Shown here in pieces: positions 17,973 through 45,112 of a DNA stretch of 64,000 nucleotides (position 1 is the first letter of the stretch; every line of letters starts with the position of its first letter). Where the stretch lies: assembly GCF_003646465.1 (NCBI RefSeq), contig NZ_QZEX01000003.1:124001-188000 (forward strand), in the 5' to 3' direction. Origin of the DNA: Chachezhania antarctica. Its GTDB lineage: Bacteria; Pseudomonadota; Alphaproteobacteria; Rhodobacterales; Rhodobacteraceae. Under the pieces are notes generated by a model, which did no database searches, was not told the DNA's origin, and saw only the letters and a list, made by a program, of their open reading frames with translations. A program made the position numbers and the translations under genes.

Positions 17973-18995
17973 TCACGACAGCTCGGCCCGGACGATCGCC
18001 GCCCCCTGCGCCATGGATTGCATCTTGCCGAAGGCCACGTCACGCGGCAGGTATTTCAGACCGCAATCCGGCGCCACGACGATCTTGTCGGCGTCCACGT
18101 AGGGCAGCGCCCGGCGAATGCGGGCGGCAATCGCCTCGGGCGTTTCGGCGGTCTGATCCGACAGGTCCAGCACGCCAAGAATGACCGTCTTGCCACGGAT
18201 TTCTTCAAGGACCGAGGTGTCGAGATTGCTTTGCGCCGTTTCGATGGAGATCTGGTCGCACAGGCAATCCTTCATCTGCGGCAGGAAGGAATAGCCATCC
18301 GGGCGTTTCTTGGTCAGCGCCGCATAGCCGAAGCAGATGTGAACCGCGGTTGTCCCCGCCGCCCCGTCCAGCGCGGCGTTCAGGGCCGCCAGCCCATATT
18401 CCTCGGCCGGTTCCGGGCGGGCCTGCATCCACGGTTCGTCCAGCTGCACCACGTCGGCCCCGGCGGCGAATAGGTCCGCAATCTCCTCGCGCACCGCTTC
18501 GGCATAGCCCATCGCGGCCTTGGCCGGGTCGCCGTAATATTCGTCGACGGCCTGCTGGCTCATCGTGAAGGGTCCGGGCAGCGTGATCTTGATCTGACGG
18601 TCGGTATGGGCGCGCAGGAACTTCAGGTCCTCGACCTCCACGGGGCGTTCCCGGGTGATCGGCCCCACGATCCGCGGCACCGGCACCGGCTGGCCCGACC
18701 GGGTCATGACCGTACCGTAATTGTCCAGATCCAGCCCGCCAAGTGCTGTGGCCAGCCGGTTGGAATAGCTCTCGCGCCGGATCTCGCCATCGGTGATGAT
18801 GTCGAGCCCCGCTTCCTCCTGATCGCGGATGGCGATGCGCGTGGCATCGTCCTGCGCTTCCCTCAGATGGTCTTCAGGGATGCGCCACAGCTCCTTCGCG
18901 CGGGTGCGGGGCGGGAACTGGCCTTTCAGCTTCTCGCGGTCGATCAGCCAGTCGGGCTGGCAGTAGCTTCCGACAAGGGACGTGGGAAACAGCAT
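17973..18995 (-). CDS. MetE-like (cobalamin-independent methionine synthase fold) zinc methyltransferase
   Basis: A 340-residue single-domain homologue of the C-terminal half of MetE. Zinc-site residues are kept: His219 and Cys221 (AVHICFGY), a Glu near 252 (ISIETAQSNLD) and Cys311 (VVAPDCGLKYL). The folate-binding N-terminal half of true MetE is missing. Proteins of this size include epoxyalkane:CoM transferases and uncharacterised methyltransferases in catabolic clusters. It is the last gene of a four-gene operon with an amidohydrolase, an IclR regulator and an intradiol dioxygenase, so I infer a methyl- or alkyl-transfer step on the pathway substrate rather than methionine synthesis. The ATG at 18995 follows GAGAGG. 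Confidence 0.82.
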   Translation of the reverse strand: MLFPTSLVGSYCQPDWLIDREKLKGQFPPRTRAKELWRIPEDHLREAQDDATRIAIRDQEEAGLDIITDGEIRRESYSNRLATALGGLDLDNYGTVMTRSGQPVPVPRIVGPITRERPVEVEDLKFLRAHTDRQIKITLPGPFTMSQQAVDEYYGDPAKAAMGYAEAVREEIADLFAAGADVVQLDEPWMQARPEPAEEYGLAALNAALDGAAGTTAVHICFGYAALTKKRPDGYSFLPQMKDCLCDQISIETAQSNLDTSVLEEIRGKTVILGVLDLSDQTAETPEAIAARIRRALPYVDADKIVVAPDCGLKYLPRDVAFGKMQSMAQGAAIVRAELS

Positions 18996-19049
18996 GGTGA
19001 AACCTCTCGTTCTGTTGCCGGTCGGACCAGCCACGGGCCCGACCAGGGG

Positions 19050-30432: not shown

Positions 30433-31992
30433 ATGAGTTTTCTGCTCCTGTTCGCCCCGCTTGCCATGGCCGCATCGGCCGTGGCGATGCATCTTCGCCC
30501 GCCCGCCCGTGCGCATTGGTTCTTCCGCCTGCCAGAGCTCTCGGCGCTCGCCGCGCTAGGTGTCGGGGCGCTCGCGACCGTGGAGCTCGTTCTTTCCGGG
30601 CCATCGACGAGCCCGCTTCTGGGCGTGGCTCCTGTCGGATTATCCGCGCGTATCGACATCGTGAGCGTCGCGATGACACTGACGGTGGCTTTCGTCGGCT
30701 GGGTGGTCCTGCGGTTTTCGCGCGTGGCGCTCGACGGCGAGGCGCGGCAACCCGCCTTCATGGTCTGGATGGCCGCGACGATTGCCTGCGTTTTGCTGCT
30801 GGTCGGCGCGGGAAATGTCGTGCAGCTTGCCGTCGGCTGGGTGGCGACCGGCGTGACCCTGCATCGCCTGCTGCTGTTCTATCCCGACAGGCCCCGCGCG
30901 CGGCGCGCCGCCCGGAAGAAGGCGCTGAGCGGGATTGTCTCCAGCGCGGCGCTTATCGCCGCCGCCGGCCTGCTGATCGCGGGCTTCGGCACCTCCGACA
31001 TCGCCACCATCGACGCTGCGGCCCGGGCCGGTGACCATGTCGGCCCTCTCTGGCTGGCCGCGCTGCTTCTCGCGGTCGCCGCAATCTTCAAGTCCGCGCT
31101 GGTGCCCGTGCATGGCTGGCTGACCGAGGTGATGGAGGCGCCGACACCGGTATCTGCCCTGCTGCACGCCGGGGTGGTGAACGCGGGCGGTTTCCTTCTG
31201 ATCCGCTTCGCAGATGTCCTGATTGCGACGCCCGGCGTCCTGGCCGCGCTGGCCCTTATCGGCGGGTTCAGCGCGCTTGTTGGCGCGGCGATCGCGCTGA
31301 CGCAACCGGCAGTCAAGACGGCGCTGGCCTGGTCCACCTGCGCGCAGATGGGCTTCATGGTGCTGCAATGCGGGCTGGCGCTGTTCCCGCTGGCATTGCT
31401 GCATATCGTGGCGCACTCGCTTTACAAGGCGCACGCGTTCCTTGCTTCAGGCGATGCCGTGCGCGAGGTCAGGTCGATCCGTCGGCCGGGGCCGGTCGCG
31501 GTGCCAAGCCTGCCCGCCGTTGCGCGGTCCTTCGGCCTCGCGCTTGCGCTCTACGTCATTGTCGGGCTGGCCTTCGGGCTTGCGTCGAAATCGCCGCAGG
31601 CCATCGCACTCGGCGCGATCCTGATCTTCGGGGTGGTCTACCTGATCGCGCAGGGCCTTGCCGATCTCGCGCCGCGCGCGCTGGCCTGGCGCACGGTCGC
31701 GCTCTCGGTCGGTGCAACCGTCGCCTATTTCACCTTGCAGCACGCCGCGACATGGGTCTCGGCGGGCACCCTGCCGCCCCCGCCGCCGCCCGACGGACTG
31801 ATCTGGACGACCATCGTCCTTGCCCTCGCAAGCTTTGCCGTCGCCGCGGTGGCGCAGACGACCTTCCCGCTCTGGGCCGGACATCCGGCGGCGGCGGGAC
31901 TGCGCGTGCACCTGATGAACGGCCTCTACATCAACGCGGTCCATGATCGGCTCTCGGGCCGGTGGACCCCCAGGACCGGAGCGATCCAATGA
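30433..31992 (+). CDS. dabB: DAB inorganic carbon system, membrane subunit (NuoL/MrpA-like)
   Basis: A 519-residue membrane protein related to the proton-pumping subunits of complex I. Antiporter-like blocks include the Lys in AAIFKSALVPVHGWLTEVMEAPTPVSALLHAGVVNAGGFLLIRF and the HIVAHSLYKAHAFLASG helix with its conserved His and Lys. It lacks the long NuoL C-terminal arm. In DAB systems this subunit couples the cation gradient to the cytoplasmic DabA protein for unidirectional CO2 hydration to bicarbonate. Its stop overlaps the dabA start (ATGA). The pairing with a DUF2309 protein makes the assignment firm; without dabA it would be called a NuoL paralogue. Confidence 0.9.
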   Translation: MSFLLLFAPLAMAASAVAMHLRPPARAHWFFRLPELSALAALGVGALATVELVLSGPSTSPLLGVAPVGLSARIDIVSVAMTLTVAFVGWVVLRFSRVALDGEARQPAFMVWMAATIACVLLLVGAGNVVQLAVGWVATGVTLHRLLLFYPDRPRARRAARKKALSGIVSSAALIAAAGLLIAGFGTSDIATIDAAARAGDHVGPLWLAALLLAVAAIFKSALVPVHGWLTEVMEAPTPVSALLHAGVVNAGGFLLIRFADVLIATPGVLAALALIGGFSALVGAAIALTQPAVKTALAWSTCAQMGFMVLQCGLALFPLALLHIVAHSLYKAHAFLASGDAVREVRSIRRPGPVAVPSLPAVARSFGLALALYVIVGLAFGLASKSPQAIALGAILIFGVVYLIAQGLADLAPRALAWRTVALSVGATVAYFTLQHAATWVSAGTLPPPPPPDGLIWTTIVLALASFAVAAVAQTTFPLWAGHPAAAGLRVHLMNGLYINAVHDRLSGRWTPRTGAIQ

Positions 31993-34355
31993 ACATGCAT
32001 GCCTCCTGGCACGGACAGGCACTCGAACTTTTCGCAGCCGCGGAAGATGCCATGCGGCAGATCCCTCCGGCCTTCCCTCTCGAAGCGACCGTCGCGGTCA
32101 ATCCGTGGCTGGGCCAGTCGGGCCAAGACCGCACCGTCGCGGCCGCCCGGATGGCCAGGGTTGGCGGCGGCCGGATGTTCCTGCCGCGCGGCACCGTGGC
32201 CGCGAAGATGGCGGCGGGCGATGTGACGCCCGAAGATGTCGCCGCGGCGGCGGCGGCGCATGGCCTCGATCCGCACGCCCTGGTCCGCGCCGCGACCAAG
32301 CCTGCCGATCTGCCCGCCCCGCTTCCCACGATTGCGGATCTGGCGCAGCAGGACGATGGCATCGACTGGCCCGGCTTCATCGAGGACCGGATCGGTCACT
32401 GGGCGGCTGTGCAGTTCGACCGCGGGCAAGCCTTCTGGCCGGCGCCCGCCGCCGGAGCCTGGGCATCGTGGCGGGCCTATGCCAGCCGCGACCTGACCCC
32501 GGATATCGCGGGCATGTCCGGCTTTGCCGCGCGTGTCGTGGCGATGCCGACAGACGCACGGTCCGCCTTCGTCCACGCCTGCCATGCGCTGGATCTCACG
32601 CCCGGGGCGGCGCCGCTTTTCTTCCACCGCTTGCTCACGACCCTGTCGGGCTGGGCGCAATATGCGCGCCATCTGTCCTGGGTCGCCGAACGCGACAGGG
32701 GGCGGGACGACACGCTGTTCGAACTGATGGCCGTCCGCCTCGCGTGGGAGGTCGCCCTGCTCGAACAAGGCGGGGCCGCGCGCAAGGAGGATTGGGAAAG
32801 GGCAAAGGCCGATTACGCCCGCCCCGTCGAACCCGACCGCGAACTGCGGTTCGATGCCGCCCTTCAGGAGGCTGTCGACCGCAGCGCCGAACGGTGTCTT
32901 GCCGAAACGCTCTCGGGCGGCACCAAGACCCACGCGGCAGACAATCCCGCGATCCAGGCGGCGTTCTGTATCGACGTGCGGTCCGAACGTCTGCGTCGCG
33001 CGATCGAGACCGCCGATGCGGGGATCCGGACGACCGGCTTCGCCGGCTTCTTCGGGCTGCCGGTCCGGCACCGCCCCCGCGCCTCGGACATCGTCGAGGC
33101 GCGGGCGCCGATCCTGTTGTCCCCCGCGATCCGGACGCGGGCGGCAGACGATGCCGATGTCGACACCGCTGAACGGGTCAGGCTTCGCACGATCCGCGCC
33201 TGGGGTCGGTTCAAGCGGGCGGCCGTTTCGGCCTTCGCCTTTGTCGAGGCGGCGGGCCCTCTCTACGTGGGCAAGCTCGTGCGCGACGGCCTTGGCCTGA
33301 AAGGACCGTCGCAGGCCGATACGGGCCCCGAATTCGACCTGCCGCTGGCCGACAGGATCACGGCCGCGGAAAGCGTGCTTCGCGCCATGTCCCTGACCCG
33401 GGGCTTTGCCCCGCTCGTGCTGGTCTGCGGTCACGGGGCGACGGTCACCAACGCGCCCCATGCCAGCGCGCTGCAATGCGGGGCCTGCGGCGGGTTCGCG
33501 GGCGACGTCAACGCGCGCCTTCTGGCCGGGCTTCTGAACGACGAAGAGGTGCGGACCGGGCTTGGCGCCAGGGGCATCGCGATCCCCGCCGGAACGCATT
33601 TCGTCGCCGGCCTGCACGACACCGTCTCGGATGAGGTCCGGATATTCGAAGATCGGGCGCCAGCCAGCCATCGGGCAAAGATCGACCGTCTGCGCGCGGC
33701 GTTTTCGCTGGCGGCAACGCTGACCCGGACAGAACGCGCCGGAACACTGCCCCGGGGATCGGAAGCGACATTGGCGCGGCGGGGCAGCGACTGGTCGGAA
33801 CTTCGGCCGGAATGGGGGCTCGCCGGATGCAGCGGCTTCATCGCCGCGCCCCGCGAACGGACGTTGGGCCGCGATCTGGACGGTCGGGTCTTCCTGCACG
33901 ACTACGACTGGCGGCAGGACCCGGACGCCGCGACGCTCGAACTGATCCTGAGCGCCCCGGTCGTCGTGGCAAGCTGGATCGCGCTCCAATATCACGGATC
34001 GGCGGTCGCGCCCGACACGTTCGGGGCGGGCAACAAGCTGCTTCACAACGTCATTGGCGGGATCGGCGTGCTTGAGGGCAACGGCGGCGCGCTCCGCCCC
34101 GGGTTGCCGTGGCAATCCGTGCACGACGGCGACGCGCTGCGCCATGTGCCAAGCCGGCTGGTCGTCGCGGTCGAGGCCCCGGAGGAGATGATCTCCGGCG
34201 TTCTCGCGCGACAGCCACAGGTCAGGGCGCTCTTCGACAACGGCTGGCTGACGCTCGTGGCGTTGGACGACGCCGGGACGATCACCCGCCGCTACGAAAA
34301 CGGATCCTGGGCGGATCGTCCCGACGGCGATCCGGGGGTCGCGGCCGCGGCGTGA
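31989..34355 (+). CDS. dabA: DAB inorganic carbon system, DUF2309 carbonic-anhydrase-like subunit
   Basis: A 788-residue cytoplasmic or membrane-attached protein of DUF2309 (PF10070). The zinc-site residues defined for Halothiobacillus DabA (Cys, Asp, His, Cys) are present: Cys327 and Asp329 in FCIDVRSERLRRAIE, His482 in VCGHGATVTNAPH and Cys497 in ALQCGACGGFAG. The 15-residue spacing between His and the last Cys is the same. The N-terminal FPLEATVAVNPWLG and the late LPWQSVHDG are further family blocks. With DabB it should trap CO2 as bicarbonate. No Rubisco or carboxysome genes are in view, so the likely use is anaplerotic carboxylation. Confidence 0.93.
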   Translation: MNMHASWHGQALELFAAAEDAMRQIPPAFPLEATVAVNPWLGQSGQDRTVAAARMARVGGGRMFLPRGTVAAKMAAGDVTPEDVAAAAAAHGLDPHALVRAATKPADLPAPLPTIADLAQQDDGIDWPGFIEDRIGHWAAVQFDRGQAFWPAPAAGAWASWRAYASRDLTPDIAGMSGFAARVVAMPTDARSAFVHACHALDLTPGAAPLFFHRLLTTLSGWAQYARHLSWVAERDRGRDDTLFELMAVRLAWEVALLEQGGAARKEDWERAKADYARPVEPDRELRFDAALQEAVDRSAERCLAETLSGGTKTHAADNPAIQAAFCIDVRSERLRRAIETADAGIRTTGFAGFFGLPVRHRPRASDIVEARAPILLSPAIRTRAADDADVDTAERVRLRTIRAWGRFKRAAVSAFAFVEAAGPLYVGKLVRDGLGLKGPSQADTGPEFDLPLADRITAAESVLRAMSLTRGFAPLVLVCGHGATVTNAPHASALQCGACGGFAGDVNARLLAGLLNDEEVRTGLGARGIAIPAGTHFVAGLHDTVSDEVRIFEDRAPASHRAKIDRLRAAFSLAATLTRTERAGTLPRGSEATLARRGSDWSELRPEWGLAGCSGFIAAPRERTLGRDLDGRVFLHDYDWRQDPDAATLELILSAPVVVASWIALQYHGSAVAPDTFGAGNKLLHNVIGGIGVLEGNGGALRPGLPWQSVHDGDALRHVPSRLVVAVEAPEEMISGVLARQPQVRALFDNGWLTLVALDDAGTITRRYENGSWADRPDGDPGVAAAA

Positions 34356-34634: not shown

Positions 34635-36230
34635 TCATTTCCCTGCCGCAGGCATTGCCGCCGCGCCCTGTTCCGCGGGACGGATCGTCAGCCCCGCCTT
34701 GCGCCACGCGGCCAGCGCGCGGTCGCGCAGGGTATCGTAACAATCGACGCTCAGCTCGGCATGCGCGCGCTCTTCGAACGTCGGGTAAAGCGCCAGCATC
34801 GCCGCAGCCTCTTCGCGTGCCGCCGACATGTGTCCCAGCTCCACCTCGAACCACGCCGCGTGGGCGTGATACCAGAAGAAACCCGGCATCGGGAAACGGT
34901 TGATCTCGACAAGCGCGTCTTCGAACCGGCCGGCATTGGCCAGCCGCCAGCAATGCGCGAAATGATACCAGCCGGGATGCACCGGGCTGACCGCGATGGC
35001 GCGGTCGAGAAGGGCGATGGCGCGCTCCTCCTCACCGATGAAGGCAAAGCAATGGCCGATCTCGGCCAGCACGTCGGCGTGTCCGTCGTTGAGGTCCAGC
35101 GCCCGCTCGGCGGCGTCCCGGAACCCCGGCAGATCCTTGCGATAAAACCTGCACAGCGCCAGCGCCGTCTGCGCGAAGGCATCCTGCGGATCGGCCCGCA
35201 CGGCCTGTCGCGCGGCGTCGTGGGCAAGCGCCAGAGCGTCGACGTCGGGCCGGGCGTTCATGTAATAGCGGTATTCTTCCAGCAGGATCATCGCGTAGGC
35301 CGACCAGCCCTGCGACGATTGCGGATCCTTTTCCAGCGCCCGGGGGAATGCATCCCGCAGCGTGGCGTGGATCTCGGGATCGTAGCCGACATAGTAATCG
35401 TGAAACTGCGTCAGCAGCCGGTAGGTGTCCCAGCTATGCGTGCCGCCGGCGCGCGGCACGCGCCCGATGTGATCCGCGACCGCCCCGTAACGGCTGGCCA
35501 CGCGTCCCGCGATCAGCCGCGCCAGTTCGTCCTGGATGTCGATCAGGCCGTCGATGCTGTCGTCGCGGTCGAACTGTTCCGTCAGCAGAAGCTCCCCGCT
35601 GGCCGTGGCACTGACCTGCACGGTGACCCGCAGGCGCGGCGACGCCCGGCGCACGCTGCCTTCGACAAGGTAGTCGACACCGGGATCGAGCCGCAGTTCG
35701 CCCGGGCGCGCGCCGTCTTCGGCCATCTGCGTCGTCGTCCGGCGGGAAAACACGAACAGGTCGCGAAAGCGCGACAGGTTGACGATGGTCTGTTCCGTCA
35801 GACCGTCGGCGATGAACCCGTCTTCGGGCGTGGCACCCAGGACCCGGAAGGGCAAAACGGCGATGGACGGCCGGCTGTCCCGGATGATGCCCGACCGCGC
35901 CTCCTGCGGTTCCGCATCGGCGTTCACGTCGGCCACGAACCGGAAACCGTGGCCGTGCATCGTCTTGATCGTGTGCTGGGTCCGCCCGTTGTCGCCTATG
36001 GCCTGACGGACTTCCTTGATCGCCGTCGACAGGCTGGCGTCCGAGATGATGCGATCCCCCCAGACCTTGGCGATCAGCTCGTCCTTGCCGACAACCCGAT
36101 GGCGGTTCCGGATCAGGTGATCGAGGATACGCAAGGTCTGCGGGGTCAGCGAACGCACATGACCGCCCCGCTCGACCCGGGCCAGGTCGCTCTCCAGCAC
36201 GCAATCCCGAAACTGAACTTTCATCTCCAT
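34635..36230 (-). CDS. CadC/ToxR-like winged-helix regulator with TPR-rich C-terminus
   Basis: A 531-residue regulator. Residues 1-105 are an OmpR-type winged helix (SLTPQTLRILDHLIRNRHRVVGKDELIAKVWGDRIISDASLSTAIKEVRQAIGD ... GHGFRFVADV). Residues about 120-245 form the adenylate-cyclase-associated TolB-like domain common in this group (RPSIAVLPFRVLGATPEDGFIADGLTEQTIVNLSRF). The last ~230 residues have TPR-like helices (AYAMILLEEYRYY, AQTALALCRFYRKDLPGFRDAAERALDLNDGHADVLAEIGHCFAFIGEEERAIALLDRAIAVSP). No membrane segment is seen, unlike CadC. It is divergent from the sulfur-related operon, and the phased CTCAGA repeats between them are its likely target. Confidence 0.85.
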   Translation of the reverse strand: MEMKVQFRDCVLESDLARVERGGHVRSLTPQTLRILDHLIRNRHRVVGKDELIAKVWGDRIISDASLSTAIKEVRQAIGDNGRTQHTIKTMHGHGFRFVADVNADAEPQEARSGIIRDSRPSIAVLPFRVLGATPEDGFIADGLTEQTIVNLSRFRDLFVFSRRTTTQMAEDGARPGELRLDPGVDYLVEGSVRRASPRLRVTVQVSATASGELLLTEQFDRDDSIDGLIDIQDELARLIAGRVASRYGAVADHIGRVPRAGGTHSWDTYRLLTQFHDYYVGYDPEIHATLRDAFPRALEKDPQSSQGWSAYAMILLEEYRYYMNARPDVDALALAHDAARQAVRADPQDAFAQTALALCRFYRKDLPGFRDAAERALDLNDGHADVLAEIGHCFAFIGEEERAIALLDRAIAVSPVHPGWYHFAHCWRLANAGRFEDALVEINRFPMPGFFWYHAHAAWFEVELGHMSAAREEAAAMLALYPTFEERAHAELSVDCYDTLRDRALAAWRKAGLTIRPAEQGAAAMPAAGK

Positions 36231-36282
36231 AGCCCCCTGCTACGGCATCATTGACCATCATACAGCCTGTTTCCGACATTTG

Positions 36283-36320
36283 CTCAGACAGTCTCAGGAA
36301 TTTCTCAGATCCGGCTCAAG
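36283..36320. promoter_or_regulatory. Four helically phased CTCAGA-type direct repeats
   Basis: CTCAGA (36283), CTCAGG (36293), CTCAGA (36304) and CTCAAG (36315) recur at 10, 11 and 11 bp. OmpR/PhoB-type winged-helix proteins bind head-to-tail repeats one helical turn apart. The repeats lie between the CadC-like gene and the homocysteine S-methyltransferase gene. Confidence 0.6.
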
Positions 36321-36398
36321 CCTGGCATCTGCCGGCGCTCTATCCCCCTTTCAGCAGCCACGGCGCGTGTTGCCGGGCCAGGAAAATGGATCAGAGAC

Positions 36399-37340
36399 AT
36401 GAAATACCGAAACGCACTTCCCCAGTTGAACGGCCACAAGATGCTGACCGAAGCCGGGCTGGAAACCATCCTGGTGTTCCACGAAGGCATCGATCTGCCG
36501 CTCTTCGCCGCCTTCACCGCGCTGGAGACCGAAGCCGGCGCCGCGGCCATCGAACGCTACATGCACCGGCTGGCACAGATCGCCCTTCAGACCGGGCGTG
36601 GCTTCATCATGGACACGCCGACATGGCGGGCAAGCTCCAAGTGGGGGGCCGAACTGGGCCTCACCGCCGCCGACCTGAAGGAGATCCACCGCGAGGCGAT
36701 CGCGATGCAGCTTGGCCTGCGCGACCGGTTCGAAACCCCCGCCTCGCCCTTCGTGATCAACGGAGTCCTTGGCCCGCATGGCGACGGATACGCTCCCGAA
36801 AGCCATCTGAGCGCGGCGCAGGCGCACGCCTACTACGCCGAGCAGGTCGACTGGTTCGCCGAACTGGGCGCCGACATGGTGTCGGGGCTGACGATCACCT
36901 CCGCCTCCGAAGGCACGGGCATTGCCCTGGCCGCCCGCGATGCGGCGATCCCCGGGGTCGTGTCCTTCACGCTGGAAACCGACGGGCGCCTGCCGTCAGG
37001 CGAACCCCTGAAGGACGCGATCCGGTCGGTCGACGACGCGACGGGCGGGGCCGCGGCCTACTTCATGATCAACTGTGCGCACCCCGATCACTTCCGCACG
37101 GTTCTTCGGGACGGCGGCGACTGGACCCGGCGCATCGGCGGCGTGCGCGCCAATGCCTCGCGGCTGTCGCACGCCGAACTCGACGTGGCCGAGGAACTGG
37201 ACGACGGCGATCCGGCCGAACTGGGCGGGCTCTACCGCGGGCTGTCTGCGCACCTGCCGAACCTCTCTGTCGTCGGCGGATGCTGCGGCACGGATCACCG
37301 TCATCTCGAAGAAATCTGCCGGTCGCTGGACGCGGCCTGA
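36399..37340 (+). CDS. Homocysteine S-methyltransferase family protein
   Basis: A 313-residue zinc-dependent methyltransferase. Zinc ligands are Cys226 (MINCAHP) and Cys295/Cys296 (VVGGCCGTD), as in MmuM and betaine:homocysteine methyltransferases. GLETILVFHEGIDLPLFAAF replaces the usual DGGxxTxL N-terminal block, so it belongs to a divergent subgroup. In the family, methyl donors are S-methylmethionine, betaine or dimethylsulfonium compounds and the acceptor is homocysteine or another thiol. It is the first gene of a possible operon with DUF1127, MddA-like, monooxygenase and MATE genes, which points to methylated sulfur metabolism. Confidence 0.88.
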   Translation: MKYRNALPQLNGHKMLTEAGLETILVFHEGIDLPLFAAFTALETEAGAAAIERYMHRLAQIALQTGRGFIMDTPTWRASSKWGAELGLTAADLKEIHREAIAMQLGLRDRFETPASPFVINGVLGPHGDGYAPESHLSAAQAHAYYAEQVDWFAELGADMVSGLTITSASEGTGIALAARDAAIPGVVSFTLETDGRLPSGEPLKDAIRSVDDATGGAAAYFMINCAHPDHFRTVLRDGGDWTRRIGGVRANASRLSHAELDVAEELDDGDPAELGGLYRGLSAHLPNLSVVGGCCGTDHRHLEEICRSLDAA

Positions 37341-37398
37341 ACCGGCGGCGCGCCTTGCGCGCGCCCCGGACCACACCACCGAAAACGGAAAACAGAAA

Positions 37399-37581
37399 AT
37401 GAGACCGGGTACTTACATTCACCGCCTGCGAGAGGCGTTCCGCCGCAACAGGCACCGTGCGCGGCGCCGGAAGATGCACCGCGCCACCTTCAGCGGCCTT
37501 TCCCACCTGTCCAGCCGGGACCTGAACGACATCGGCGTCTGGCGCGACAGGGAATGGTTCGGAACCGACGCGGATTACTGA
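37399..37581 (+). CDS. DUF1127 small basic protein
   Basis: A 60-residue Arg-rich protein. The C-terminal block LSHLSSRDLNDIGVWRDREW is the DUF1127 signature (L-L-D-R-x-L-x-D-I-G-[IL]-x-R). Members in alphaproteobacteria affect RNA or phosphate/carbon metabolism, and short forms bind RNA. The ATG at 37399 lies 58 bases after the methyltransferase stop. An in-frame extension further upstream is chance sequence overlapping the previous gene. Confidence 0.85.
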   Translation: MRPGTYIHRLREAFRRNRHRARRRKMHRATFSGLSHLSSRDLNDIGVWRDREWFGTDADY

Positions 37582-37741
37582 CCGCGTCGCGCCCTTCCCC
37601 CCCTCAATCAACGGATCCCAGGGGCACTTTCCACCGCCGCCCACGTGCAGGTTTTCGCGGTGCGGCCCCCCCCGCGCGGGGCGCGATCTTCTGCGCGGTC
37701 CCGCGCCCCCTTTCCCATCCCGTGACCCCGAAAGCCCACCC

Positions 37742-38491
37742 ATGAAACGTCTTATCCTTGTCTATGCCCTGGCCAGCTACGCCCTGTTCGGCGCGGTCTT
37801 CGTGTGGCTCGCCGCCTTCCTTCTGAACCTCGGCGACATGCGCGGACTGGCAACGCGTCCGCTGCCCGAGGCGGTGGCCATCAACCTGTCCCTCATCGCG
37901 CTGTTCGGCGTCGTGCACAGCGTCATGGCGCGCCCGGGCTTCAAGCGTGTCTGGACGAAGATCATCCCGCCCGCGTCGGAACGCGCAACCTACGTGCTGC
38001 AATCCTCGCTGCTGCTGGGCCTGATCATCTGGCAATGGCAGCCGATCCCGACGGTCATCTGGCAGGTCGACGGCCCGGCCGTCTGGCCGATCCACGGCGC
38101 GTTCATTCTTGGCGCCCTGACCGTCCTGACCGCCACATTCCTGCTGGGGCATTTCGAATTCGTGGGCCTGTCCCAGGCCTGGAACAACCTGCGCGGCGCC
38201 CCTGTGCCGTCCGCCGCGTTCCGCACGCCGATGCTGTACCAGATCGTGCGCCACCCGCTGCAACTGGGCCTGCTGATCATGATGATCGCCACCCCGGTGA
38301 TGACGCTGGGCCACCTGATCTTCGTCGCGTCCATGGCGCTTTATATCGCCATCGGCCTGCGGTTCGAGGAACGCGCGCTGCTGCGCGAGTTCGGCGCGGC
38401 CTACGCGGCCTACCAGCGCGACGTGCCGATGCTGTTCCCGCGCCCGTTCCGCCGCCTTCGGACCGCGTCCGGCGGTCAGCGGGCAGACTGA
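37742..38491 (+). CDS. MddA-like methanethiol S-methyltransferase (NnrU/ICMT fold)
   Basis: A 249-residue membrane methyltransferase with about five to six helices. VVHSVMARPGFKRVWTKIIPPASERATYVLQSSLLLGLIIWQWQP matches the hallmark region of MddA (Q/VHSxMARxxFK, ERxTYVL), which methylates methanethiol to dimethyl sulfide with S-adenosylmethionine. The C-terminal IVRHPLQLGLLIMMIATPVMTLGH and RFEERALLREFGAAYAAYQRDVPM are the SAM-binding ICMT/PEMT-type blocks. Family membership is clear; the specific MddA function is likely but unproven because NnrU-type relatives share much of the fold. The neighbour with homocysteine methyltransferase similarity supports a role in methylated sulfur. Confidence 0.75.
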   Translation: MKRLILVYALASYALFGAVFVWLAAFLLNLGDMRGLATRPLPEAVAINLSLIALFGVVHSVMARPGFKRVWTKIIPPASERATYVLQSSLLLGLIIWQWQPIPTVIWQVDGPAVWPIHGAFILGALTVLTATFLLGHFEFVGLSQAWNNLRGAPVPSAAFRTPMLYQIVRHPLQLGLLIMMIATPVMTLGHLIFVASMALYIAIGLRFEERALLREFGAAYAAYQRDVPMLFPRPFRRLRTASGGQRAD

Positions 38492-38524
38492 TCCCCCCCT
38501 TCCAACCCGAAGAAAGACAGAACC

Positions 38525-39724
38525 ATGCAACCCACCCCTGAAAACGTTCTCATCATCGGCGCGGGCCTGTCGGGCCTTGCCGCCGCCGAAGCCCTTCAGC
38601 GTCACGGCATCCCCGTCACCATACTGGAGGCGCAGGACCGCGTGGCCGGGCCCTGGCGCGCGCGGCATCCTGCGCTGCGGCTGAACATCCACCGCCATTT
38701 CGCCAGGCTGCCGGGTCTGACCCCGCCGCGCGAAGATGGCAGCTACCTGCGGCGTGACAGCGTCGTCGACTACCTGTCGCGCTACGCCGACCATATCGGG
38801 GCCGACATCCGCTTCGGTACGAAGGTCATGGCCATGGCCCGCGATGCCGGTGGCTGGCAGGTCGATACCACGGCCGGCACGTTCAACGCCGCGCATGTCG
38901 TCATTGCCACCGGGCGCGACAGCGTTCCGCATATACCTGACTGGCCGGGCAAGGACGCGTTTGAAGGCCAGCTGCTGCACGCCGCCGATCTGGGGGACGT
39001 ATCCCGTTTCGATGGCAAGCGGGTGCTGGTGGTGGGCGCGGGAAATTCGGGCTCCGACGTGCTGAACCACCTTGCGCGGCATCACCCGGCAGAGGTCATG
39101 ATCTCGGTCCGCCACGGCCCCGCGATTGTCCCCAACCGCGTGTTCGGCTTCCCGCTTCATCGCGCCGCGCGCCTGTTTCAGGCCATGCCCCTGCCCGTGG
39201 TCGACCGCGCCTTCGCGCTGACCCAGCGGCTGTTCTTCGGCGATCTGGCGCGCCACGGCCTGCCCTCGCACCCTATGGGCGGCGGCACCCGCCTTGCGCA
39301 GGACGGCACCGCCTTCGCCATCGACGACGGCTTCGTCGCGGCCTTAAAAAGCGGTCGTTTCAGAATCGTTCCGGTGATCAGCCGGTTCGGCCGTGATCGT
39401 GTCAATTTCGAAGGACCACCAGACTTTGCCGCCGACGTGGTGATCTGCGCGACGGGATACCGGACGGGGCTTGAACCACTGGTCGGTCCGCTTGGCGTTC
39501 TGGACAACCGGGGCAATCCGCACTTCCCGGCGGGAGAGCCGGACCCGGCCCATCCCGGGCTCTGGTTCGCGGGCTACAAGCCCCAGTTCACCGGCTACTT
39601 CGACGCCGCCCGCACGGCGGCCAACCGCATCGGCAGGGCCATCGCCGCCGACCTGCACCATAGCCGGCATCCCGCCGGCCCATCCGCCCCGCCCAACAGG
39701 ATGCCCCAGCCGGTGAAAGGCTGA
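38525..39724 (+). CDS. Flavin-containing monooxygenase
   Basis: A 399-residue single-component flavoprotein. The FAD-binding GAGLSG is at residues 12-17 and the NADPH-binding VVGAGNSGSD near 179. Between them is LNIHRHFARLPG, and ICATGYRTGLEP is the late ATG motif common to FMO-type enzymes. The FMO fingerprint FxGxxxHxxx(Y/F) is represented by FEGQLLHAADLGD, which suggests a YUCCA-like or sulfide/amine-oxidising FMO. In this neighbourhood oxidation of a methylated sulfide (for example dimethyl sulfide) is an attractive guess. It starts 33 bases after the MddA-like gene. Confidence 0.85.
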   Translation: MQPTPENVLIIGAGLSGLAAAEALQRHGIPVTILEAQDRVAGPWRARHPALRLNIHRHFARLPGLTPPREDGSYLRRDSVVDYLSRYADHIGADIRFGTKVMAMARDAGGWQVDTTAGTFNAAHVVIATGRDSVPHIPDWPGKDAFEGQLLHAADLGDVSRFDGKRVLVVGAGNSGSDVLNHLARHHPAEVMISVRHGPAIVPNRVFGFPLHRAARLFQAMPLPVVDRAFALTQRLFFGDLARHGLPSHPMGGGTRLAQDGTAFAIDDGFVAALKSGRFRIVPVISRFGRDRVNFEGPPDFAADVVICATGYRTGLEPLVGPLGVLDNRGNPHFPAGEPDPAHPGLWFAGYKPQFTGYFDAARTAANRIGRAIAADLHHSRHPAGPSAPPNRMPQPVKG

Positions 39725-39782
39725 CGGCACCGCCCATGCGCCCCCCTGACACGGTCAGGCGGGGCCTCCAAGGACAAGACCC

Positions 39783-41165
39783 ATGACATCGATCGACATC
39801 CCACGGCCCCGACGGGGCCGTTTCAAACGCGTGGGGCACCACGCCAGCCGCGCCGAAACCCGGGCGCTCGTGCGCCTTGCCGCGCCGCTGACCTGCCTGG
39901 CGCTGGTGAACATGGCGATGAGCGTGACCGATACCCTGATGTCGGCCGCCTTCGGGGTCGAAGCCCTGGCGGCCGTGGCGGTGGGGAGCGATTTCTATTC
40001 GATCTTCTTCTACCTTGCCATCGGTTGCATCGGCGGGCTTGCGCCGCTCTATTCGGCGGCCCACGCAGCCGGCGATACCGCGCGCCTGGCCCGGCTTCGC
40101 ACGGCGGGGGCGGTCACCTGTACCCTGCTGGCCCTGCCGATCTGCGCCCTGCTGTGGCATGCCCCTTCGGTCCTGCACCTCTTGGGCATCGATCCGCGCC
40201 TCGTGGACGCCGGGGCCGGCTACACACGGGCGATGGCCCTGACGGCGATCCCGATGCTGGCGGTCGGCGTCCTGCGCACCCGGCTGACGGCCATCGAGCG
40301 TCCGGGCGTGATGCTGCGGATTACCCTGTGCGCCGTACCGCTGAACGCGCTGTTCAACCACGCCCTGATGCATGGCGCCATGGGGCTGCCCGGGCTTGGC
40401 GTGACGGGGGCGGGCGTGTCCTCCCTTCTCGTCGGGACCCTGACGCTTGCCGCGCTCGGGGTCGAGGCAAGACGCGCGGGCGACAGCGGGCTGGGCCGCG
40501 CAAGCCCGGCCGATGTGGCAGAGATCTTCCGCATCGGCGTGCCCATCGGCATCGCGACGCTGGCCGAAGTCGGGATCTATCTTGGCGCCACGCTTTATGC
40601 CGCCTCGCTTTCGGTGACGGATGCCGCGGCGCATTCCCTTGCGATCCGCCTGGCAGGGATCGGCTACGCCTTCTATTTCGGGCTGCAACAGGCCTCCATG
40701 ACCCGGCTTGCGCGCGTGGGCCTGGCGCCCGGTTACAGTCGCGAGGTGATCGGCAGCGCGATGGTCCTCGGCTGGGCTGCCGGAATGTGCCTTTGCCTGA
40801 CGCTTCTCGCCGTAGCGGCACCCCTGGCGCAGGCCATGCTGCAAGCCTCGGCCCCCGCTGCCGTTCAGGTCGCCACGCTGGTGATCTGCGCCCTTGCGAT
40901 GGCCGAACTCTCCGGCCCCGCGGGCGCCTGCGCCGCGGGTCTCCTGCGCGGCATCAAGGTCACGCGCCCGGTGATGGTCTACTCGCTGATCGGAAACTGG
41001 CTGATCGCGGCGCCGTTGGTCGCGATCGCGACGCTGGTCTTCGACATGGGGGCGGTGGGCATATGGATCGGCATGGCCACCGGAACCGCCGCCTATTCCG
41101 CGCTGAGCATGCTGGCCCTTTGGCGGCACACCCGTGTCGTTGCGGCTGGCGCCCCAACACCCTGA
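39783..41165 (+). CDS. MATE-family efflux transporter
   Basis: A 460-residue membrane protein with about 12 helices in two MatE repeats (LVRLAAPLTCLALVNMAMSVTDTLM in the first; EIFRIGVPIGIATLAEVGIYLGATLYAASL in the second). The family exports cationic drugs or metabolites in exchange for Na+ or H+. The first ~25 residues are basic and cytoplasmic. AAGGA precedes the ATG, and it lies 58 bases after the monooxygenase, so it may export a product of that operon. A strong hairpin follows the stop. Confidence 0.9.
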   Translation: MTSIDIPRPRRGRFKRVGHHASRAETRALVRLAAPLTCLALVNMAMSVTDTLMSAAFGVEALAAVAVGSDFYSIFFYLAIGCIGGLAPLYSAAHAAGDTARLARLRTAGAVTCTLLALPICALLWHAPSVLHLLGIDPRLVDAGAGYTRAMALTAIPMLAVGVLRTRLTAIERPGVMLRITLCAVPLNALFNHALMHGAMGLPGLGVTGAGVSSLLVGTLTLAALGVEARRAGDSGLGRASPADVAEIFRIGVPIGIATLAEVGIYLGATLYAASLSVTDAAAHSLAIRLAGIGYAFYFGLQQASMTRLARVGLAPGYSREVIGSAMVLGWAAGMCLCLTLLAVAAPLAQAMLQASAPAAVQVATLVICALAMAELSGPAGACAAGLLRGIKVTRPVMVYSLIGNWLIAAPLVAIATLVFDMGAVGIWIGMATGTAAYSALSMLALWRHTRVVAAGAPTP

Positions 41166-41172
41166 CGGGGTG

Positions 41173-41210
41173 CCGGCGGTTTCGGGCGTTGATGGCCCCC
41201 GAACCGCCGG
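41173..41210 (+). terminator. Hairpin downstream of MATE gene
   Basis: CCGGCGGTTTCGGG pairs with CCCGAACCGCCGG (one unpaired base) around a 9-11-base loop, starting 8 bases after the MATE stop. It is a plausible end of the 36.4-41.2 kb operon and separates it from the replication region. Confidence 0.55.
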
Positions 41211-41538
41211 GCCTTGCAGACCCCGGACCTGTCCGATAAAATTTGTATCTCCGCGATCAGCCCATCACGGCAACCAGGTAGCCGCGACCGGTCAACCGGA
41301 CGCGACAGGATGCGCTCAACCGATGTCAGGCGCTGGCCTGTGCCACCATGCCCCCTGCCCTGCGGACCGGACACGCCGCAAAAAATGACCCTGTGCCGTG
41401 TGACACGCTCTCTGCCCCCGAAGCTTATACCGTTGCGAAACATAGAAAATACTTGCGCAAGATCAGTGTCGCGGCAATAGTCACGGAAAATAGCGGATAA
41501 ACGCGAAGAACCGTGAACACGGCGCAAGGGCAGAAGCG
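41211..41538. promoter_or_regulatory. Leader region upstream of repA
   Basis: About 330 bases with lower G+C content than the flanks and no gene. It should contain the repA promoter. Two short two-fold elements are present: CTTGCGCAAG (41452-41461) and CCGTG-AA-CACGG (41511-41522), the latter 16 bases before the repA start and a candidate RepA/RepB operator for autoregulation. Confidence 0.45.
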
Positions 41539-42723
41539 ATGAACTCCTCCGAGCAGGAAGACCTGAATACGGTCATCCGTCAACATTCCGAATGGCTGGC
41601 GAACCAGTTGCACGCGCAGCGGGAATCCCTCTTTCCCCCCGACGCGTCCAAGGCCATGCGCCGGTTTTCCTCGGGCGAGGCCGCGCGCCTTCTGGGCGTG
41701 AACGACAGCTACCTGCGCAAGCTGCACCTCGATGGCAAGGGCCCGTCGCCCGAATTGTCGCCGGGGAACCGTCGCCTCTATTCCGTGCAGGATATCAACG
41801 ACTTGCGGCACCTTCTTGAACAGACGGCCCGCAAATCCGGCGATTACCTGCCCGGCCGGCGCGACGGCGACAGGCTCCAGATCATCGGTGTGATGAACTT
41901 CAAGGGCGGCTCCGGCAAGACGACCACCTCCGCCCATCTCGCCCAGCACCTGGCGCTGCATGGCTACCGCGTTCTGGCCATCGACCTCGACCCGCAGGCC
42001 TCGCTCACCGCGCTCTACGGTGTGCAGCCCGAAGTCGACCTGCCCGATGGCGGCACGCTCTACGATGCGATTCGGTACGAAGATCCCTGCCCCATCGCCG
42101 ACGTGATCCAGAAGACCTATATTCCCGGGCTCGACCTGATTCCCGGCAACCTCGAACTGATGGAATTCGAACACGAAACCCCCCGCGTGCTGGCGCAGGG
42201 CAATGCCGGGCTGTTCTTCTACCGGGTCAAGGACGCGCTGAACCAGGTCGACGATCAGTACGACGTGGTGGTCATCGACTGCCCGCCGCAGCTGGGCTTC
42301 CTGACGATGTCGGCGCTCTCCGCCGCAACCGGCGTGCTGGTAACGATCCACCCCGAAATGCTCGACCTCATGTCAATGTCGCAGTTCCTGCGGATGACGG
42401 CCGACCTGATGGACGTGATCGCCGAAAGCGGCGCCGACATGAGCCATGACTGGATGCGCTACCTGCTCACCCGGTACGAGCCCACGGACGCGCCGCAGAA
42501 CCGCATCGTCGCCTTCCTGCGCACGATGTACGGCGACAAGGTTCTGAACGCGCCGATGCTGAAATCCACCGCGATTTCCGACGCCGGGCTGACGAAGCAG
42601 ACATTGTACGAAGTCGAACGATCTGCCTTCACCCGCACGACCTATGATCGTGCCATCGAAAGCCTGAACGCGGTCAATGACGAGATCGCGGCCTTGATCC
42701 AGAAAACCTGGGGGCGCACATGA
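41539..42723 (+). CDS. repA: Plasmid partition ATPase RepA (ParA family)
   Basis: A 394-residue ParA-type ATPase. The N-terminal ~100 residues carry a MerR-like helix-turn-helix (FSSGEAARLLGVNDSYLRKLHLDGKGPSPELSPGNRRLY) used for autorepression. The deviant Walker A is NFKGGSGKTTTS (about 120-131), and DLDPQASL (149-156) and VIDCPPQLGF are the remaining ATPase motifs. The protein drives segregation with RepB and the parS sites. Its stop overlaps the repB start (ATGA). Gene order and lengths are those of alphaproteobacterial repABC replicons. Confidence 0.96.
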   Translation: MNSSEQEDLNTVIRQHSEWLANQLHAQRESLFPPDASKAMRRFSSGEAARLLGVNDSYLRKLHLDGKGPSPELSPGNRRLYSVQDINDLRHLLEQTARKSGDYLPGRRDGDRLQIIGVMNFKGGSGKTTTSAHLAQHLALHGYRVLAIDLDPQASLTALYGVQPEVDLPDGGTLYDAIRYEDPCPIADVIQKTYIPGLDLIPGNLELMEFEHETPRVLAQGNAGLFFYRVKDALNQVDDQYDVVVIDCPPQLGFLTMSALSAATGVLVTIHPEMLDLMSMSQFLRMTADLMDVIAESGADMSHDWMRYLLTRYEPTDAPQNRIVAFLRTMYGDKVLNAPMLKSTAISDAGLTKQTLYEVERSAFTRTTYDRAIESLNAVNDEIAALIQKTWGRT

Positions 42724-43718
42724 GCGACAGCAAGAAACGCCGCATGTCCATGCTCGACACGCTGGCCGCCTCGGGCGGTCCGCCCACGGCCGGGTCGATG
42801 ATGTCCACGAACCGCGCCCTGCGGTCCGCCCGTGACGCCGTCGACAGCCACCACGTGTGGGAGCTTGACCCCGACGTGATCGACGACACCCGGATTGCCG
42901 ACCGTCTTGATCCCGCCGACGTGCTCGACCTGCGCGACGCGATCGAGGCGAACGGCCAGGCCGTGCCAATCCTTGTCCGCCGCAATCCTGACCATGCCGA
43001 CCGCTACCTGCTCGTCTACGGGCGCCGGCGGCTGGAGGCGATCCGCGGCTCCGACAAGGTGACGAAGGTCCGCGCATTGGTCGCCACGCTGGACGACAGC
43101 GCCGCGGTGCGCACCCAGATTTCCGAAAACATGGCCCGGCGCGATCTGACCTTCATCGAAAAGGCGCTGTTTGCGCAGGAACTGGTGGAAACGGGCTTCG
43201 GCAACCAGACGCAGGTGGCCGAGGTGCTGACCGTCACCAAATCCTCCGTCTCCATGGCCATCGCCATCGCGGGCGCCGTGGGGGCGGATCTGGCCCGCGC
43301 CATCGGCCCCGCGCCGGGCATCGGTCGTCCGCGGTGGGAAGCGCTGGCAAAGGCCGTCGAGGAACGCGGCGCAGACCGTGAGAAACTGATCGAAATCGCC
43401 CACGACGTGCATTCCAAGGCCGATGTGGCGGTCCTGATCGAAGCGCCGGAGGAAGGCTATGATCCCTCCCTGCAGGCGTTCGAGGCGGTGATGGACGCCG
43501 CCACCCCTGCCCCGAAACCGCAGGCCAGGCCGGCCCCCGCCCGGCCCGCACCCACGGTTCTGGCCGTCGAGGGCAAGCGTGCCGGAACCGTCAAGAGGAC
43601 GGCCAAGGCGCTGACGATAAACATTGAAAATGGCGAATTCGCCGATTGGATCGAGGCCGAAGCGCAGGATCTGATCGCGGATCTTCACGCGCGCTGGAAG
43701 ACGCGCGGCGAAGACTGA
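42720..43718 (+). CDS. repB: Plasmid partition protein RepB (ParB family)
   Basis: A 332-residue centromere-binding protein. The ParB nuclease-like domain lies at about 40-130 (DRLDPADVLDLRDAIEANGQAVPILVRRNPDHADRYLLVYGRRRLEAIR), followed by a helix-turn-helix (QTQVAEVLTVTKSSVSMAIAIAGAV) and a Pro/Ala linker leading to the dimerisation tail. VRTQISENMARRDLTFIEKALFAQELVE is a strong family block. It should bind the parS-like palindromes after repC. Start ATG overlaps the repA stop. Confidence 0.95.
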   Translation: MSDSKKRRMSMLDTLAASGGPPTAGSMMSTNRALRSARDAVDSHHVWELDPDVIDDTRIADRLDPADVLDLRDAIEANGQAVPILVRRNPDHADRYLLVYGRRRLEAIRGSDKVTKVRALVATLDDSAAVRTQISENMARRDLTFIEKALFAQELVETGFGNQTQVAEVLTVTKSSVSMAIAIAGAVGADLARAIGPAPGIGRPRWEALAKAVEERGADREKLIEIAHDVHSKADVAVLIEAPEEGYDPSLQAFEAVMDAATPAPKPQARPAPARPAPTVLAVEGKRAGTVKRTAKALTINIENGEFADWIEAEAQDLIADLHARWKTRGED

Positions 43719-43761
43719 GGCAACGTAAACGTAAACAGGCAAGAAAAGGAGGCACGAGCAG

Positions 43762-43802
43762 ACAAAAGAAAAGGTCCCGCAAAGACGGTGCTTCACGAGA
43801 CC
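43762..43802 (-). terminator. Intrinsic terminator of the predicted ctRNA
   Basis: Minus-strand stem GGTCTCG (43802-43796) pairs with CGGGACC (43779-43773) with one G-T pair, and is followed directly by TTTTCTTTT. It is the clearest Rho-independent terminator in the window. Confidence 0.7.
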
Positions 43803-43818
43803 CTGACTTGTTTTTCGC
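43763..43818 (-). ncRNA. Predicted counter-transcribed RNA (ctRNA) between repB and repC
   Basis: On the minus strand a -35-like TTGCGG (43853-43848) and -10-like TAGCTT (43830-43825) are 17 bases apart. Transcription from about 43818 would give a ~55-nt RNA ending in a terminator stem followed by TTTTCTTTT. In repABC replicons an antisense RNA of about this size, encoded in this interval, represses repC and sets copy number and incompatibility. The RNA is predicted from these signals, not observed. Confidence 0.65.
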
Positions 43819-43824
43819 ACTCTC

Positions 43825-43853
43825 AAGCTAGGGAAATGAAACCCGCTCCGCAA
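43825..43853 (-). promoter_or_regulatory. Predicted ctRNA promoter
   Basis: TTGCGG and TAGCTT on the minus strand, spaced by 17 bases, point away from repC toward repB. A shifted reading with TTGGAC as -35 gives a worse -10. Confidence 0.45.
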
Positions 43854-43891
43854 GTCCAAAGTGATTCGCGGGACAGCTAAATTTTGTCTTC

Positions 43892-45112
43892 GTGACAGTT
43901 ATGACAGGATACACCCCCGTAACGCCGTTTCGGCGACCGATGGCGGCTGTCCGGACGAAACCCGTTCCCGCGGGTGACGTGCCGGCCGTCGACAAATGGC
44001 AGGTCCTGCGCGACCTCGCGACCGCACGCCAGGCCTATGGCCTGTCCGACCGTGATCTTGGCGTGCTGCAGGCCCTGATCTCGTTCCATCCCGGTGCGGA
44101 TCTGGGCGGCGCGTCGCTTGTCGTCCACCCGTCGAACCGGTCGATCTGCGATCGCCTGAACGGCATGCCCAATTCCACCATGCGGCGCCACGTGGCCCGG
44201 CTGGTCGATGCCGGCATCGTGGTTCGCCGCGACAGCCCCAACGGCAAACGCTATGCCCGCCGCTACGGCGACGAAAAGATCGCCTACGGTTTCGATCTCT
44301 CGCCGCTCGCCCGCCGTGCGGTGGAGTTCCGGGACGCCGCCGAACAGGCCCGCGCCGACGCCGCCCGCCTGAAGCGCCTGCGGGAAGAGGCCAGCCTGAT
44401 GCGCCGCGACCTTGAAGCGCTCGCCGTCGAAGGCCGGTCCCTCGCGCCCTCTGCGGCCCCGTGGGACGCCTATTCCGACATGGCCGCCCTCACGGCCCGC
44501 GCCCAGCGCCGGAAGCTCTCGGCCGACGAAACAGCAGCCCTGCGCGACCGCCTGTCCGAAGCCCTGACCGAGGTGAAACAGGCGCTGGATCTTGTGGAAA
44601 ACCCAGGCGCCGAAACAGAAGAATTGAGCACCGGACCCGCTGAAAATGAGCAGCACATACAGAGTTCAAATAAGGACTTTAAGGAATCTGAACCCTGTGG
44701 ATCCACGTCCTTGCGCGTGGTTCCAGGACGCGACCGTACGCAGTGCAAAGAAGATGTTAACGTGCCCGGGCCAGAGTGCCCGACGTCCGACGGCAGTCCC
44801 GATCTGCGGGCGGTGCTAAGCCAGTGCAAGGAAGTACAGACCTTCCATGACGGGCCGATCAGATCCTGGCCGGACCTTGTTCGCGCAGCCGGAACCGTCG
44901 CGCCGATGATGGGTATCACGGTCGGCGTATGGAACGAAGCGGTCCGCGACATGGGGGCAGGGCAGGCGGCCGCGGTCGTCGCCGCGATGCTGGAACGGTT
45001 CGACCGGATCCAGTCACCCGGCGGCTATTTGCGGTCCCTCAGCCGGAAGGCGGCAGCGCAGCAGTTCAGCTGCCGGAAGATGATCGCCGCCTTGGAGGCC
45101 CGGGCGGCATGA
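43892..45112 (+). CDS. repC: Plasmid replication initiator RepC
   Basis: A 406-residue initiator if the GTG at 43892 is used; an ATG at 43901 gives 403. The N-terminal two thirds hold the winged-helix DNA-binding region (KWQVLRDLATARQAYGLSDRDLGVLQALISFHPG, NRSICDRLNGMPNSTMRRHVARLVDAGIVVRRDSPNGKRYARR). This is followed by a coiled stretch and a divergent linker rich in Ser/Glu, and the family C-terminal block SWPDLVRAAGTVAPMMGITVGVWNEAVRDMG. In this family the origin lies inside repC. No clear Shine-Dalgarno precedes it, in line with control by RNA structure and the ctRNA. Confidence 0.93.
   Translation: MTVMTGYTPVTPFRRPMAAVRTKPVPAGDVPAVDKWQVLRDLATARQAYGLSDRDLGVLQALISFHPGADLGGASLVVHPSNRSICDRLNGMPNSTMRRHVARLVDAGIVVRRDSPNGKRYARRYGDEKIAYGFDLSPLARRAVEFRDAAEQARADAARLKRLREEASLMRRDLEALAVEGRSLAPSAAPWDAYSDMAALTARAQRRKLSADETAALRDRLSEALTEVKQALDLVENPGAETEELSTGPAENEQHIQSSNKDFKESEPCGSTSLRVVPGRDRTQCKEDVNVPGPECPTSDGSPDLRAVLSQCKEVQTFHDGPIRSWPDLVRAAGTVAPMMGITVGVWNEAVRDMGAGQAAAVVAAMLERFDRIQSPGGYLRSLSRKAAAQQFSCRKMIAALEARAA

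Follow-up and report, generated by a model that had tools for sequence, protein, structure and literature searches.

Here we describe a set of five genes on the + strand of a 64,000-nt window from Chachezhania antarctica (NZ_QZEX01000003.1, positions 124,001-188,000; coordinates below are those of the window). They encode a PF02574 protein annotated as a homocysteine S-methyltransferase family protein (HMT), a DUF1127-like protein, an MddA-type membrane methyltransferase, a flavin-binding monooxygenase (FMO) and a MATE exporter, and they lie downstream of a divergent CadC-type regulator (Table 1). The regulator and HMT genes are 168 bp apart, and gaps of 58, 160, 33 and 58 bp separate the five genes. 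The short-gapped run and its own regulator stand as the first-pass annotation had described them. The cassette adjoins the replication module of a repABC replicon (a 419,688-base contig), with 373 bp between the end of the MATE gene and the start of repA at 41539. Based on its relatives, the set appears to be one assembly of a widespread, mainly alphaproteobacterial gene cluster that is seemingly undescribed. This cluster consists of a regulator, a first-slot methyltransferase (PF02574 or Rv2258c-like), DUF1127 and the FMO, with MddA, a secreted allene-oxide-cyclase-like barrel, a MauG-like dihaem protein and a MATE or LysE exporter as optional parts. We found no account of it in the literature, as far as titles and abstract openings show.

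Table 1 The cassette and its flanking features (scores in bits, model cut-offs in brackets).
Feature	Coordinates	Strand	Support
CadC/HilA-type regulator, N-terminal OmpR-like winged helix and tetratricopeptide repeat (TPR) region	34635..36230	-	Pfam Trans_reg_C 56 (26.2)
Probable operator, CTCAG-type repeats	36283..36319	+	Repeat kept in related divergent regions
PF02574-family Zn methyltransferase (HMT)	36399..37340	+	S-methyl_trans 106 (22)
DUF1127-like small Arg-rich protein, 60 aa	37399..37581	+	PF06568 18.8, below cut-off (23.3)
MddA-type integral membrane methyltransferase	37742..38491	+	NF045656 245 (270); NnrU Pfam 26.2 (24.7)
FMO-like flavin-binding monooxygenase, 399 aa	38525..39724	+	PF00743 75.8 (22)
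MATE-family exporter	39783..41165	+	MatE 89 (24.9)
repA, repB, repC (context, outside the cassette)	41539..45112	+	TIGR03453 637, ParB_N 30, RP-C 184

The same genes recur together in genome G055, in two Roseobacter genomes and on a Sulfitobacter plasmid, and the linkage of the cassette genes therefore exceeds chance. Within the family set of 248 genomes, G055 has all five window genes in order on one strand, with two genes inserted: HMT (51% identity), a DUF1127-like open reading frame (ORF), a secreted protein, a MauG-like dihaem protein, MddA (79%), FMO (73%) and MATE (74%). The Roseobacter loci L111 and L128 carry HMT (79%), a MauG-like protein, a 261-residue protein, MddA (69 and 67%) and FMO (72%). 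On the Sulfitobacter mediterraneus plasmid, the regulator (64%) and HMT (73%) are accompanied by an extracytoplasmic function (ECF) sigma factor, a transposase, two hypothetical proteins and MddA (56%); Q230, a hypothetical protein of this plasmid, has a 54% relative inside a Pseudosulfitobacter FMO cluster. G231 carries HMT (53%), a secreted protein, a Lipoprotein_15 protein and MddA (60%). For G215, the only other congener among the 248 genomes, MddA gave nothing at E <= 0.001, HMT no close match (best E 1.2e-7) and FMO a best match of 36%.

Scanning genome contigs with an FMO alignment yielded 47 loci, several of them cut by contig ends, and it is here that the wider cluster is seen. A divergent GlxA-type AraC regulator is present in 42 of the 47, in place of the CadC-type regulator of the window. 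The first slot upstream in the same-strand run of the FMO is taken by HMT in 19 loci and by an Rv2258c-like S-adenosylmethionine (SAM) methyltransferase in 23, with one locus holding both, such that one or the other is in the FMO run in 41 of 47. This tally leaves out the HMT of L114 (other strand, 6.4 kb away) and a 27% Rv2258c-like match in L149; in L111 and L128, further genes separate HMT from the FMO. The Rv2258c-like name comes from Pfam PF21320 (PDB 5f8c, to which a first-slot relative scores 347 bits); this enzyme is absent from the window and has no orthologue in the window's genome (best 26 bits). In a tree of 49 FMOs (the 47 plus the window and G055), the first-slot enzyme requires at least six changes between HMT and Rv2258c-like, counted on the 42 rows that hold a single one of these enzymes (L145, which has both, and six loci with neither were left out). 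Since so many changes are needed, the tree indicates that two unrelated families replaced each other repeatedly or were exchanged by recombination.

The remaining parts of the cluster vary. DUF1127-like matches were found in 16 of the 47 loci, MauG-like in 12, the secreted barrel in 11, a second methyltransferase in 10 and MATE in seven. LysE-type exporters occur in four loci (PF01810 for the one scanned), and G055 carries both MATE and LysE-type. MddA adjoins the FMO in four clusters, namely the window, G055, L111 and L128; a 25% match on the other strand in L130 was excluded. In G303, which belongs to another family, GlxA (46%), Rv2258c-like (51%) and MddA (39%) are adjacent, indicating that MddA can also follow the Rv2258c-like enzyme. 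Annotated plasmids follow a similar pattern: Pseudosulfitobacter pSMR1-5 has a methyltransferase, DUF1127, FMO, two hypothetical proteins, a glutathione S-transferase (GST), a second methyltransferase and a DHFR-like protein, and a Ruegeria sp. YS9 plasmid has a methyltransferase and FMO behind a divergent regulator. An Aureimonas plasmid carries a 41% FMO and none of these neighbors. Genes annotated as DUF1127 adjoin the FMO in L206 and HMT in L208.

HMT itself was considered as a marker of the module and rejected, because eight further HMT loci (L103-L110) all lack FMO, MddA and MATE. The subfamily seems to pair with differing types of regulator. Large AAA/BTAD regulators stand divergent from HMT paralogues in four of these eight loci (L104:6160-9783 (-), L106:10680-14276 (+), L107:470-4069 (-) and L108:10735-14169 (+)). 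Separately, a single ORF near FMO and HMT in L098 (7592-9724 (+)) encodes a regulator in which an OmpR-type winged helix and TPRs are combined with a guanylate-cyclase-like domain.

For the window, the five genes are likely co-transcribed, because the + strand terminator-like sites in 35500-42500 are all intragenic, with none in the gaps of the five genes, and no sigma-70-like promoter was found (0 versus 0.8 in shuffles). The 160-bp gap ahead of MddA was also considered as the site of a structured leader or terminator, an idea set aside on a fold z-score of -0.34 for 37583-37741.

The region between the regulator and HMT contains CTCAG-type repeats at 36283, 36293, 36304 and 36315, with spacings of 10, 11 and 11, which are probably the operator of the CadC-type regulator. 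An 11-bp direct repeat of the form CTCAG-N6-CTCAG (36293-36308 in the window) is present in all five divergent regions in which HMT faces a regulator at least 49% identical to that of the window; the relatives are those of L034, L099, L100 and L101 (49-64% identity). The repeat is absent from L105, where a regulator relative of only 27% stands divergent from HMT. In 1.38 Mb comprising the window and the long loci, CTCAG pairs at this spacing occur ten times, versus 3.2 predicted by base composition; any other spacing between 2 and 15 gives 0 to 3 occurrences. The five regulator/HMT promoters account for half of the ten, and the other half lie elsewhere. Within the window alone the repeat is not significant, with at least one match in 15 of 100 shuffles. 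Spacing of direct repeats by 11 bp is that expected of an OmpR/PhoB-type winged helix.

The first enzyme retains the zinc ligands of its family. Cysteines C226, C295 and C296 are conserved in all 42 aligned subfamily rows (left out were rows no longer than 250 aa and those whose residues 21-100 duplicate an earlier row). The glutamate of MmuM and BHMT is replaced by Leu, Ile, Val, Met, Phe or Ala in all 42, with Leu164 in the window protein. E. coli MmuM has Glu at that site, as do two PF02574 relatives from the window's own genome, and profile alignment to solved structures places it on the Glu of MmuM and Glu159 of BHMT. A PDB sequence search with the window protein alone found nothing at E <= 0.001; with the HMT alignment, MmuM and BHMT were found. 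The window protein shares PF02574 membership and all three zinc cysteines with MmuM and BHMT, but differs in this glutamate and is far below both NCBIfam equivalog cut-offs (MmuM 50 of 215 bits, BHMT 47 of 338). From the conserved cysteines, the missing glutamate and these scores, zinc-activated thiol or selenol chemistry is likely kept, while homocysteine is a doubtful acceptor. According to passages of one study, PF02574 enzymes use zinc to activate thiol or selenol substrates (PMC4516251).

The membrane protein is best classed by its sequence as MddA-type. It lies within the MddA clade but below the NF045656 equivalog cut-off of 270 bits (245 bits, and 245.6 on a second scan). Searching 190 genomes of the class with NF045656 gave 13 proteins over cut-off; scores of 243-246 were obtained for the window, G055 and G303 and of 172 for a further protein, and every other match listed had 79 bits or less. 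The window protein is 39-46% identical to the 13 and aligns to the model over nearly its full length. In a tree of 47 proteins, six MddA-type proteins of the module form one clade (97/98, starred) amid the over-cut-off members. The over-cut-off L177 shares a 12-row fork with them, and L176 falls just beyond that fork (support 91/89, drawn open). A set of 21 ICMT-like proteins (23-34% identity) is separate on the tree, although the split has support of only 82/70, unstarred. The first-pass annotation had named grouping with NnrU or isoprenylcysteine enzymes as the outcome that would count against it; such an identity was rejected on the position in the MddA clade. The weak NnrU Pfam match is also present in the over-cut-off L177, and the isoprenylcysteine model gives 22 of 160 bits. 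Four scanned members of the distant ICMT-like group had no Pfam match, and that group is therefore not proven to be NnrU.

In contrast to the window protein in its putative operon, tblastn (E <= 1e-5) found no recognisable module neighbor within 1.5 kb of any of the 13 over-cut-off MddA genes, and a general linkage of MddA to the module was dismissed on this count. In the family set, seven MddA-type genes are at least 39% identical to that of the window. Three have HMT nearby (window, G055 and G231), and the other four (G125, G213, G064 and G182) have no HMT, FMO or Rv2258c-like gene in the stretch read.

The window FMO belongs to the same FMO-like family as the dimethyl sulfide (DMS)/trimethylamine enzyme Tmm and as ArsO, but differs from both by score, reaching 168 of 425 bits for ArsO (NF040505, its best NCBIfam match) and 58 of 675 for Tmm (NF058570). 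Its nearest solved structures are the small bacterial FMOs 4usq and 4usr. Of the FMO fingerprint, which we take to be FxGxxxHxxx(Y/F), the FxGxxxH portion is present in 46 of 49 rows including the window, where the final position is Leu. The window FMO groups with those of G055, L111 and L128 (99/96, starred), and HMT is upstream in all of these.

Two further proteins of the cluster are secreted or have an apparent signal peptide. The secreted barrel has no match in the window's genome and no Pfam or NCBIfam match. It occurs seven times in six of the 248 family genomes, each within about 0.5 kb or less of HMT (the HMT beside it in G184 is partial); examples are L091:11958-12536 (-), L092:7948-8553 (+) and L101:10764-11327 (+). 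Among the 11 barrel-carrying FMO loci, the partner is HMT in five and Rv2258c-like in six. The predicted structure (pLDDT 79) matched allene oxide cyclases, dirigent proteins, Diels-Alderases and pyocyanin demethylase in Foldseek, with a best E of 1e-5 and TM-scores of about 0.5. From this model, the barrel may have a small hydrophobic molecule as its target outside the cytoplasm. Separately, a protein of 240-261 residues with an apparent signal peptide follows the MauG-like gene in L144 (13073-13825 (+)), L111, L128, L140, L141, L142, L146 and L151; the one member scanned had no Pfam match. It is possibly a substrate of the MauG-like enzyme.

Taken together, our tentative preference is for a horizontally mobile cassette under inducible control that serves detoxification or tailoring and whose products would methylate, oxygenate and export a small compound, probably a thiol; we give this reading somewhat less than even weight. 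By binding the 11-bp direct repeats in the divergent region, the CadC-type regulator would turn on the co-transcribed operon. The PF02574 zinc enzyme would then methylate a small thiol (or selenol), probably not homocysteine, and the MddA-type membrane enzyme a volatile or lipophilic thiol. The methylated product, or a compound related to it, would be oxygenated by the FMO and then leave through the MATE pump, with the DUF1127-like protein as a small accessory. A sulfur substrate is favored because sulfur methyltransferases make up two of the three methyltransferase families involved. Detoxification-type neighbors are found in some clusters (GST, DHFR/RibD_C-like and RidA-like proteins).

Several observations weigh against this cassette model. 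Six of the 47 FMO loci (L112, L113, L129, L132, L141 and L156) have neither methyltransferase, so methylation is not obligatory, and GlxA-FMO-MATE versions exist (L112 and L113). MddA is beside the FMO on the same strand in only two of the 47. HMT in turn occurs without the other parts, both in L103-L110 and in the regulator/HMT pairs of L099, L100 and L101, which have no MddA and no FMO above 29%. Biosynthesis would also suit the barrel and the MauG-like protein, which the window lacks. Finally, the argument from the missing glutamate depends on Glu159 of BHMT holding homocysteine, which we assume to be the case.

Of the alternatives, one is the route proposed in the first-pass annotation from methanethiol through DMS to dimethyl sulfoxide (DMSO). 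MddA would catalyse the first step and the FMO the second, with the PF02574 enzyme serving to recycle methyl groups and the pump either exporting the products or being incidental. This route is possible for the window version, though unlikely on balance, and it is not what the wider family does. The recurrence of the module, its own regulator and the MddA clade membership all stand, and a search of the window's genome for the SBP56 methanethiol oxidase family gave no match at E <= 0.001. MddA and FMO genes adjoin in the four clusters named above, and another FMO, Tmm, does oxidise DMS (PMC13352529). A dedicated route is nevertheless unsupported. The FMO is far under the Tmm cut-off and the MddA-type protein under its own; 45 of 47 FMO relatives have no adjoining MddA, the over-cut-off MddA genes lie away from module genes, and the HMT subfamily is without the MmuM/BHMT glutamate. 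A module devoted only to methanethiol is weakened by the same low count of MddA, read with the caveat that contig ends truncate several loci. In the window's genome, the best scores for Tmm (72 of 675) and methionine gamma-lyase (411 of 549.7) fall short of the cut-offs, in searches that did not include genes for dimethylsulfoniopropionate (DMSP) demethylation, and DMSO would presumably require no dedicated exporter. The MddM1/MddM2/MddH enzymes share the idea of methylating hydrogen sulfide and methanethiol for detoxification, but belong to other protein families, and the abstract and passages of that report describe no FMO/exporter cluster (PMC12904073).

Comparably unlikely is that the genes are the tailoring part of a small-molecule biosynthesis pathway, with the methyltransferases, FMO, secreted barrel, MauG-like protein and MATE making and exporting a metabolite. 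The Foldseek grouping of the barrel with allene oxide cyclases, dirigent proteins and Diels-Alderases is consistent with such a role, as are the several methyltransferases of some clusters. However, there is no backbone-building enzyme among the annotated neighbors, which are a minority of the neighbor ORFs, the window version has neither barrel nor MauG-like protein, and gene content varies much among clusters.

A more specific proposal is that the PF02574 subfamily, the Rv2258c-like proteins and the MddA-type proteins are all thiol or sulfide S-methyltransferases of one modular defence, with two of them swapped in one slot, the FMO oxidising the methyl sulfide and the pump removing it. We consider this a long shot on present sequence comparisons. 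Slightly less probable again is detoxification of metalloids or of selenium or tellurium by methylation of a selenol or arsenical, oxidation and MATE efflux. ArsO is the best NCBIfam match of the FMO, and zinc activation in PF02574 enzymes extends to selenols (in passages of PMC4516251), but the ArsO cut-off was missed and there is no metalloid resistance gene among the annotated neighbors. Least probable is that HMT is simply a homocysteine methyltransferase of methionine salvage and that its neighbors, unrelated to it, collected close to a plasmid origin. This view would fit the PF02574 membership, the position beside repABC and the subfamily HMTs and regulator/HMT pairs found without MddA or a close FMO, but its "unrelated" half is already refuted by synteny across several genomes and its enzyme would lack the MmuM/BHMT glutamate and miss both equivalog cut-offs.

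Elsewhere in the window, an inorganic carbon transporter pair lies just upstream of the regulator (30433-34355 (+)), with a DabB-like antiporter-type subunit (PF00361, 138.5 bits) followed by DabA (PF10070, 777.8 bits). A stand-alone MetE catalytic domain is encoded at 17973-19034 (-) (PF01717, 131 bits), with the MetE N-terminal domain not over cut-off. Roseobacter methionine synthases are treated in PMC12366255. A piece of a Mutator-family transposase (PF00872) is present at 1621-2118 (+), with 165 aa versus a model of 379 positions.

Automatic annotation as a homocysteine S-methyltransferase family protein would place this cluster in methionine or DMSP metabolism. The missing glutamate, the repeated first-slot swap and the recurrent FMO partner indicate that it is probably something other than that. 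The comparison also names a concrete enzyme set (the PF02574 subfamily, the Rv2258c-like protein and the FMO), for which a shared substrate could be found by one assay panel. For marine surveys, such MddA-type and HMT genes should not be counted as plain DMS or methionine genes. If the three methyltransferase families do serve one modular defence, the cluster would represent a new inducible, plasmid-borne route for detoxification of sulfide or thiol toxins and for DMS/DMSO formation in marine alphaproteobacteria.

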